Source: Bacteroidales bacterium (GTDB lineage Bacteria; Bacteroidota; Bacteroidia; Bacteroidales; F082). Taken from it: a stretch of DNA of 59,259 bases. The stretch is from NCBI GenBank assembly GCA_017460915.1, contig JAFUAA010000028.1, forward strand, positions 1 through 59,259. The letters are read 5' to 3'. This document shows, piece by piece, positions 32,944-34,579 of this stretch (positions are counted from its first letter, which is position 1; each line of letters opens with the position of its first letter). A model generated the notes under the pieces. The model did not search any database. It was not told the origin of the DNA and saw only the letters and a program-made list of their open reading frames with translations. The position numbers and the translations under genes are program-made.

Positions 32944-33160
32944 AAAAGTCTTTTTTCTTTGAAAATAAAGATCACATTTTCTTGGGAAGAAAAATCTAAA
33001 AACCACACTTTTCTTGGGGTAAGTTATAGTACGTTGTACTCTTTGACTTGCTGATTCGTTTTTTTGTGTGTTTCTGAGAAAAAAACTCACATTTCTCGTC
33101 ACTTTCGTGAAATTTGTTTGTTTTTGCCGCGTCTTTGTCCGAAAGGCAGGGATGACATAA
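32944..33160. other. AT-rich gap without a gene
   Basis: Contains three variants of a CACATTTTCTTGG-like word (near 32971, 33004 and 33088) and a small dyad AGTAC-N3-GTACT (33028-33040). No convincing reading frame, RNA gene or promoter was seen. Confidence 0.4.
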
Positions 33161-33164
33161 CAAG

Positions 33165-33184
33165 AAGGCGTTTGCTAACGCTTG
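33165..33184. other. Short hairpin before the structured element
   Basis: GCGTT (33168-33172) and AACGC (33177-33181) form a tight stem with loop TGCT, extended by A-T and G-T pairs. It lies 18 bases outside the closing stem of the larger structure and may belong to it. Confidence 0.45.
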
Positions 33185-33201
33185 TTTTTGGTTTTGTTGA
33201 A

Positions 33202-33380
33202 CGTAGGAAATTCAGACTCATAAATCAAAAGCATGTCAGAGGTGGATGCCGCGCGGTGAAGTGTATTACTTCCCGTTAGTGTGCAGAGCGTAAAAAGCTC
33301 ATGCACACTTTTCGGGTTTAATGTTTATACCGCCTGCGTGGGTATCTTTTCTGTTTGTTTATTTATGAGGGTTTCCTACG
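33202..33380. ncRNA. Candidate structured RNA: long closing stem with three internal hairpins
   Basis: The outer stem pairs CGTAGGAAA (33202-33210) with TTTCCTACG (33372-33380). After a 6/2-base internal loop it continues as CTCATAAAT (33217-33225) with ATTTATGAG (33361-33369). Inside are three hairpins. P2 is GAAGT/ACTTC (33258-33272), extended by CGG/CCG across a bulge. P3 is AGTGTGCA/TGCACACT (33278-33309) continued by GAGC/GCTC across one bulged A. P4 is ATACC/GGTAT (33327-33345). Eighteen base pairs closing a junction with three arms is unlikely by chance. It matches no tRNA, tmRNA, RNase P or riboswitch class that I recognise. The strand is undecided; no clean TAnnTTTG box is seen on either side. 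Confidence 0.55.
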
Positions 33381-33540
33381 ACCTAACAAGACGGACGAGC
33401 GGATGCTTAGATTTTTGTGTGGGTCAGTGAAATTGATAAAAATCGGCTCGGATTTGGGTATTTGACGAGCTTGCAAATGCGTTGCAAACAACTTAATCCA
33501 TAAACATCTAAATATCCAAAACAATGAAAACATTAAACAA

Positions 33541-33763
33541 ATTCGGGAAACAGTTGCTTCTCGCAAAATCTCTCCTTCAAGATAAAGGTTGTTTAGATGT
33601 TTGTTGATGGCGGCCCCCCCACATCGAACAATGCCGCCATTGCCTTTTGAGTTCGCCAAATGGTTTCGTCCTTATAAACCACTTGGATGCCGTCTTCTTT
33701 GCCTTCTGCTTGGAAAATCAGAAACTCCGCAGTGCTATTCCTTATTTCGAGTTGTTTGCTCAT
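33541..33763 (-). pseudogene. Broken RhuM family gene (virulence RhuM-like), frameshifted and truncated
   Basis: From the ATG at 33763 the minus strand reads MSKQLEIRNSTAEFLIFQAE, KDETIWRTQKAMAALFDV, the conserved N-terminus of RhuM proteins. At a run of seven G (plus strand C, 33614-33620) the frame is lost. In the next frame it continues AAINKHLNNLYLEGEILREATVSR, again RhuM. Homology ends at about 33541, where full-length members continue for 250 or more residues. So there is a one-base slip in a homopolymer plus loss of the 3' part at the edge of the structured element. RhuM function is not established. Confidence 0.75.
33607..33640. other. Hairpin at the homopolymer in the rhuM remnant
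   Basis: ATGGCGGC (33607-33614) and GCCGCCAT (33633-33640) form an 8-bp stem. The run of seven C lies in its left flank and loop. It probably reflects the repeat-prone sequence at the frameshift rather than a terminator, since no T-run follows. Confidence 0.35.
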
Positions 33764-33805: not shown

Positions 33806-34579
33806 CTAAACCTTCAGTTCCTTCTCGATCATTTCCTTCAATTCCGAGGCTTTCACGGTTTGGATTTCTCCGCCGGTGACCATGCTGATGCTGCCCGTTT
33901 CTTCCGAAACAACCAAAGCGATGCAGTCGTTGTCCTCGGTCACGCCGATGGCGGCACGGTGGCGCAGGCCGTAATGTCCGGGGATGTTGGTCTTTTGGGT
34001 GACTGGAAGGATGCAGCGCGCCGCTGTGATGCGGTTGTGGCGGATGATCATGGCACCGTCGTGCAAAGGGCTGTTCTTGAAAAAGATGTTCTCAATCAGC
34101 GGGTTGCTGATGTCGGCATTGACCGTTACGCCGGTCGTGACGATGTCATCCAGGTTATTTTTTCGGGTGAGCAGGATGAGCGCACCTTGTTTGATCTCCG
34201 ACATATTGATGCAGGCCTTGGTCAAGGCATCGATATTGAGGTCGACATTGCTTCTGACTTTCAGAAACTTGAAGCGTTGCGCCAGCTTGCCTTCCTGCGC
34301 CTGTGCCCCGATGGTGAACAGGAAACGCCGAATCTCAGGCTGGAAGATGATGATGAGCGCGATGAAGCCCACGCTGACGAAAGCTCCTAGGATGGCGGTC
34401 AGCATTTCCATCTGCAAGGCTTTGACCAACTGCCAGATGACGAAGATGGCCACGATGCCGATGAAGATGCTCATGGCCGATGTGCCTTTCAGCAAGCGAT
34501 ACAGACCGAAAAACACTAACGCCACAAAAAAGATGTCGATGATGTCGAAGACACGGATTTGGATGAAAAGGTCGATCAT
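33806..34579 (-). CDS. cdaA: Diadenylate cyclase (c-di-AMP synthase) CdaA
   Basis: 257 residues. Three N-terminal membrane helices (about 1-80) are followed by the DAC domain with the catalytic motifs LHDGAMII (DGA) and GLRHRAAIG (RHR). It makes c-di-AMP from two ATP at the inner membrane; c-di-AMP controls potassium, osmolyte and cell-wall homeostasis. The ATG overlaps the folP stop by four bases, so it is co-translated with folP, an order common in Bacteroidota. Confidence 0.94.
   Translation of the reverse strand: MIDLFIQIRVFDIIDIFFVALVFFGLYRLLKGTSAMSIFIGIVAIFVIWQLVKALQMEMLTAILGAFVSVGFIALIIIFQPEIRRFLFTIGAQAQEGKLAQRFKFLKVRSNVDLNIDALTKACINMSEIKQGALILLTRKNNLDDIVTTGVTVNADISNPLIENIFFKNSPLHDGAMIIRHNRITAARCILPVTQKTNIPGHYGLRHRAAIGVTEDNDCIALVVSEETGSISMVTGGEIQTVKASELKEMIEKELKV

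Follow-up and report, generated by a model that had tools for sequence, protein, structure and literature searches.

An RNA fold without a family assignment

The 59,259-nucleotide stretch of a Bacteroidales contig analysed here (the window) contains a 179-base segment, 33202–33380, that was initially annotated from its letters as an unrecognised structured RNA with a closing stem of two 9-bp helices around three hairpins. This locus raises the question of whether the pairing reflects an RNA maintained by selection and, if so, what such an RNA may do. Both helices are found where they were described: 33202–33210 (CGTAGGAAA) pairs with 33372–33380 (TTTCCTACG) over 9 bp to form P3, and 33217–33225 (CTCATAAAT) pairs with 33361–33369 (ATTTATGAG) over 9 bp to form P4, the latter being also recovered by a repeat search. 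The folding energy of 33160–33420 is –103.9 kcal/mol, as compared with –67.5 kcal/mol (sd 4.85) in 200 dinucleotide shuffles, none of which folds equally well (0/200; z = –7.5). A competing reading frame had been said to be absent, which is a fair description, the region holding two small overlapping ORFs that lack a Pfam match.

The layout of the initial annotation needs revision in two respects. The stems stand, but the element is longer than 179 bases and spans about 33119–33470. The locus does look like a four-way junction, but its true source is a rod plus a side arm, the latter missing from compact relatives. In addition, the proposed contact with a broken rhuM gene was dropped, as the 56-aa minus-strand piece at 33596–33763, whose likeness to rhuM is our presumption, matches neither Pfam nor NCBIfam models.

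Compensating changes in relatives of the element

A blastn search placed another copy in the window's own genome (C24:1692–1937) and located more in further genomes belonging to the genus, with several in each. The element is branched, about 190–280 nt in size, and its parts follow one another in the order promoter box, variable hairpin, ACATA, P0, Q, P2 5′ strand, H1 (whose loop is the P3 5′ strand), P4 5′ strand, U, optional side arm, M, P4 3′ strand, H2 (whose loop is the P3 3′ strand), P2 3′ strand, T with a U-run, D hairpin and gene (Table 1). The bases beside P3 are conserved, with AA preceding it and GG and CC flanking its 3′ strand (conservation of 0.94 or more in each case).

Table 1. 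Parts of the element in window coordinates. Gains (kcal/mol) compare own with swapped partners; "above half" and "above 90%" count copies whose own partner exceeds that share of the swapped ones.
Feature	Position	Strand	Evidence
Promoter box, degenerate (TGTTTTTG in place of TAnnTTTG)	33119–33128	+	Assigned by position
5′ hairpin, variable sequence, between promoter and element	33131–33156	+	By eye, window and relatives
ACATA motif before P0	33155–33161	+	ACATA at most 25 nt before P0 in 64/87 copies
P0 hairpin (GGCGTT..AACGC)	33167–33183	+	Sequence conserved; covariation weak: gain 0.6, 27/79 above 90%
Q, hairpin 1 5′ strand	33177–33191	+	Q:U5 gain 2.2; 76/88 above half
P2 5′ strand (3′ strand 33382–33397)	33188–33201	+	Gain 7.1; 85/88 above 90%
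H1 hairpin; loop 33202–33210 is the P3 5′ strand	33196–33217	+	Stem gain 1.5; 77/88 above half, 22 above 90%
P3 (H1 loop : H2 loop)	33202–33210 : 33372–33380	+	Gain 7.8; 88/88 above half, 62 above 90%
P4 5′ strand (3′ strand 33361–33369)	33217–33225	+	Gain 6.4; 80/88 above 90%
U, partner Q or M	33225–33253	+	U:M gain 3.7; U5:M3 2.3, U3:M5 1.3
Optional side arm (the inner hairpins of the initial annotation)	33254–33333	+	Missing from compact relatives, e.g. L041, L045, L048
M, partner U (antiterminator) or T (terminator)	33334–33359	+	M:T gain 7.8; 87/88 above half, 47 above 90%
H2 hairpin GGY..RCC; loop 33372–33380 is the P3 3′ strand	33370–33383	+	Variable-pair counts
T, remnant only (terminator 3′-arm core gone)	33390–33411	+	Alignments with relatives and terminator energy
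D hairpin; loop TTTGGGTATTTGA, complementary to T in intact copies	33444–33470	+	T-core:downstream pairing gain
27-codon ORF after leader; no long same-strand gene beyond	33524–33607	+	Sequence

Pairing energies of own and swapped partners were compared in 88 copies below 85% identity, filtered from 139 copies of which at least eight represent the same place twice. The 139 exclude L124, L132 and L145, as well as copies that are partial, truncated or tandem-degenerate (L046, L050, L051, L054, L095, L105 and the upstream ones of L048 and L088). P2, P3, P4, U:M and M:T show gains between 3.7 and 7.8 kcal/mol (Table 1), as compared with 0.1 for U:T, –0.2 for P2 5′:T and 0.3 for H1 loop:M, control pairings through which these statistics, otherwise blind to ancestry, take account of it indirectly. 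Among the finer segments, M3:T5 and M5:T3 gain 3.3 and 3.9 kcal/mol in addition to the values in Table 1, and the corresponding controls give 0.4, 0.2, –0.2 and –0.3. The core of T gains 2.6 kcal/mol with the 110 nt downstream that contain D (66/87 above half, 32/87 above 90%), as compared with 0.1 for an upstream control (42/87 and 7/87). The short H2 stem has a gain of 0.0 in the duplex-energy test (n = 88), and its single variable pair is C-G in 43 copies, T-A in 38, T-G in 5, C-A in 0 and another combination in 2. Pairing of Q with T5 as a plain closing stem was ruled out, with a gain of 0.0 and no covariation. When double changes were counted separately in an alignment of 14 copies, 19 pairs had both sides altered, as compared with 11.8 after shuffling (0/500 shuffles as high) and 5–14 in slid controls.

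Compensating changes across the 88 non-redundant copies thus support the helices. Since the relatives preserve the pairing through such changes, the pairing in the window is not a product of chance, and the reading of the locus as an unrecognised structured RNA is supported at the sequence level.

Promoter and downstream genes

The motif TAnnTTTG, which we take to be the Bacteroidota promoter box consensus, lies at most 140 nt upstream in 72/87 copies, own and other, as compared with 8.9 expected from shuffles and 6 in a downstream control. Among 68 pattern-found copies, 65 have the next gene on their own strand, and so do 63 of the 70 copies of another set, the two sets sharing eight places; both thus show the placement before a same-strand gene that characterizes attenuators. 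The pattern-found set derives from 80 loci, 72 of them with a match to R1 (a sequence-only model built from 14 copies), after removal of the partial L176, L209, L214 and L224, and its same-strand count includes L216, although the ORF of L216 overlaps the element. The seven exceptions in the other set either lack an ORF (L052, L097, L098, L122, L125) or have a longer opposite-strand ORF (L088, L092). Upstream genes show no preference in the pattern-found set (n = 68), with 26 on the same strand, 22 on the opposite strand and 20 cases without a gene.

C5 DNA methyltransferases make up 33/64 next genes in the pattern-selected, Prevotella-rich sample, which also yields three N6_N4_Mtase and four Eco57I matches (overlaps not removed). 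By comparison, in the non-pattern sample (65 next genes) the top Pfam families are C5 methylase, AdoHcyase, ResIII and PLD-like with two each, and PADLOC assigns at most 3/65 to any one model. The contrast of 33/64 with 2/65 C5 methylases indicates that the methyltransferase link belongs to one subtype and not to the whole family. In this subtype the leader precedes genes for which the timing of expression can mean either self-damage or protection. Many of the other next genes are, by eye, lipoproteins or secreted or HTH proteins, and those in the window's own genome include HTH proteins, lipoproteins and restriction-type genes. The two AdoHcyase (S-adenosylhomocysteine hydrolase) genes stand behind leaders L087 and L100. 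Inspection by eye of L225, L150, L197, L201 and L162 pointed to another structured stretch of similar build, lying after the first element and before the methyltransferase gene, the distance from leader end to start codon being ~280 nt.

Two mutually exclusive folds

At the end of T, at least seven T within 12 nt are present in 85/88 copies, and the computed energy of M:T averages –36.8 kcal/mol in the 87 copies other than that of the window. By its form, a long hairpin followed by a U-run, M:T would be a terminator. Two hallmarks of an attenuator are found in the family: a covarying terminator helix with a U-run, which the window copy lacks, and an exclusive antiterminator, as U:M also covaries and has strand M in common with M:T. 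Because M is shared by U and T, T by M and D, and U by Q and M, only two combinations are self-consistent: Q:U with M:T, predicted to be the terminated state with a U-tailed hairpin, and U:M with T:D, in which the terminator would be undone.

The mean computed energies are –77.9 kcal/mol for the rod and –72.6 kcal/mol for the two hairpins plus arm, the two hairpins being better in 26/87 copies. With the side arm uncounted, the rod is better in 88/88, so that termination would need kinetics or help.

We consider it probable that the element represents a new family of bistable, cis-acting 5′ leader RNAs, each regulating its downstream gene through transcription attenuation and probably deciding between an early stop of transcription and run-on. 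Transcription would begin at the leader's own promoter, and the first half would fold into hairpin 1 (Q:U, with H1 inside). The emerging strand M would then either invade U to form the antiterminator U:M, stacked on the P4–P3–P2 rod, or stay free until T can pair with it into M:T, the U-tailed terminator hairpin that encloses H2. Upon read-through by the polymerase, hairpin D would emerge and its loop could take T, which would lock the read-through fold. Because the H1 and H2 loops are complementary (P3), hairpin 1 and the terminator hairpin may kiss through these loops and then exchange strands, and a global cue (a protein, a small molecule or polymerase speed) may bias the choice of fold. 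The covarying helices, the sharing of strands, the U-run, the promoter box and the fixed orientation to the next gene are directly observed in the copies, and from them we infer termination at M:T in the cell and interconversion of the two folds. Against the attenuator reading, the genes that would be regulated are too varied to name a signal. If the element terminates transcription as its anatomy says, it would constitute a common layer of gene control in Bacteroidales.

Distribution and novelty

R1 matches 75 of 99 genomes of the genus (E up to 0.01), 36 of 295 sampled Bacteroidales genomes (E up to 0.001) and 3 of 296 genomes of a phylum-wide sample, the window's own genome counted in. A second, loose sequence-only model built from 58 diverse copies (R2) matches 91 of the 295 Bacteroidales genomes, representing 61 of the 183 genera sampled in the order, and 7 of the 296 phylum-wide genomes. 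These seven comprise the window's own genome, a further member of the order and five other genomes from the class; three of the five (L266, L296, L297) were inspected by eye and show the same parts, including U, M, T and D, making them members outside the order Bacteroidales. With at most seven candidates scored per genome, copy numbers in the R2 order and phylum samples are to be read as "at least". Some genomes carry 5–20 related copies. Carriers include Prevotella communis E15-14 (5 matches), Prevotella sp. ne3005 (2), P. pectinovora P4-76 (5), Prevotellaceae bacteria MN60 (2) and HUN156 (6) and Bacteroidales bacterium KHT7 (7). R2 has 28 matches in the window's own genome (E up to 0.01), some of them partial; at least one of the 19 inspected consists of a 5′ half alone, and the 28 include one pair that overlaps on opposite strands.

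Tandem copies, a degenerate one just upstream of a full one, occur in L048 (G034:C4:88404 and 88705) and L088 (G073:C2:28952 and 28630). In L091 and L092, from one genome, the element is identical and the upstream sequence and next genes differ, which may be read as recent copying or gene conversion. A viral-contig scan with one narrow pattern found no copy.

Searches of Rfam 15 with the whole window and two groups of 17 and 20 loci gave no family at its gathering score over the element; the accepted matches lay elsewhere and were tRNA and one abiF RNA (RF03085), the latter at L129:910–946 on the opposite strand, ~550 nt upstream of an element copy. Permissive searches (E up to 10 or 1) returned sub-threshold matches only, and known RNA families were rejected as the identity of the element. 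The literature search, which included parts of PMC8040213, PMC2864571, PMC11697453 and PMC7366714, yielded no description of it. Despite the intense study of gut and rumen Bacteroidales, these searches found no entry for the element in Rfam 15.

Comparison with known RNAs and alternative readings

Attenuator leaders and terminating riboswitches, from which the element is set apart here by description, likewise lie between promoter and gene and have one strand, the counterpart of M, common to the antiterminator and the U-tailed terminator. Unlike them, the element has a five-segment ladder (Q–U–M–T–D) together with hairpins of complementary loops, and its hairpin past the terminator has a loop complementary to the terminator arm; it is not known to use a ligand or a leader peptide. 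Leader attenuators as such are known; neither this family nor its ladder, with the extra hairpin past the terminator, turned up in the searches of Rfam 15 and the literature. In antisense control of the pT181/CopA type, loop–loop contact is followed by an extended duplex that alters a terminator or start site. The proposed passage from loop contact to duplex is similar, but here both partners lie within one RNA and the basis is covariation. Like the FopS and GibS sRNAs, the element is a multi-copy Bacteroidales RNA family with promoter and terminator (PMC11697453, in part). FopS RNAs of Bacteroides thetaiotaomicron are described in the same part of that source as about 65–70 nt long, with a single-stranded 5′ seed and one terminator hairpin, and as acting in trans; at 190–280 nt, with several covarying helices and a tie to the next gene, the element does not fit that description. 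Bacteroidales-1, Bacteroid-trp and 6S-Flavo, Rfam families of Bacteroidetes according to the part of PMC2864571 covered, are structured RNAs of the same phylum, from which the element differs in scoring below every Rfam gathering threshold.

The terminator-type layout is also that of many riboswitches, and the element could be an orphan riboswitch in which the 5′ half (P0, Q and H1 with H2) is the aptamer and one bound small molecule or ion picks terminator or antiterminator. The conserved bases beside P3 suit this possibility, and AdoHcyase after 2/65 leaders together with the methyltransferases of one sample hints at methylation metabolism. We nevertheless regard it as doubtful, as the diverse next genes of the non-pattern sample and the own genome are unlike a metabolic feedback regulon: no Pfam family exceeds 2/65 in the former, the enrichment for C5 methylases being confined to the pattern-selected set. 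The nearly balanced fold energies and the support for every rung of the strand exchange would also suit an RNA-only switch in which chance or polymerase speed sets the fold without a ligand, producing cell-to-cell differences as an RNA counterpart of phase variation. Restriction- and surface-type genes are prominent among the next genes inspected, but the conserved bases could mean a binding partner and the energy models ignore pseudoknots and kinetics, so that such a switch appears unlikely. Its broadest form, in which ligand-free bistable leaders across Bacteroidales would turn restriction-modification, defence and surface genes on and off from cell to cell without DNA change, is less likely again.

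Two further readings would place the function elsewhere than in control of the adjacent gene. An own promoter, an own terminator, complementary loops and 5–20 related copies in some genomes would be expected of a separate sRNA gene whose 190–280-nt product ends at T and works in trans, for instance through loops that pair with other copies; the strong fixed orientation to the next gene and the conserved D hairpin past the terminator would both be useless to a free sRNA and make this very improbable. Least probable of all, the folding may reflect DNA, the element being a mobile or gene-converted unit (MITE-like or a recombination site) between promoters and genes. In favour of such a unit, L091 and L092 carry an identical element in different flanks, L162, L169, L196 and L205 have near-identical leaders with different genes behind, and several copies lie at contig ends, but the fixed orientation, promoter and U-run suit RNA, and one Prevotella-type query (L225:480–1125) had no blastn match in plasmid or phage records.

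The window copy as a damaged member

Beyond the structured RNA of the initial annotation, the locus is best described as a copy of a multi-copy leader RNA with a putative terminator/antiterminator arrangement, from which the core of the terminator 3′ arm has been lost. Alignments with relatives place the loss in T, and the best terminator energy is –20.4 kcal/mol, as compared with the mean of –36.8 kcal/mol in the other 87 copies. The promoter box is present only in degenerate form, and D and M are retained. The next gene with a family match, a diadenylate cyclase (33806–34579), lies on the opposite strand. Judged from these remains, the window copy would be unable to terminate by the M:T route and is perhaps always on. 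Because the terminator core is lost and no intact gene stands behind it, it is probably a decaying relic. The C24 copy of the same genome has all parts and is followed by a lipoprotein-like gene. In the window, an imperfect 22-nt inverted repeat (33496–33517 and 33587–33608) flanks the 27-codon ORF.
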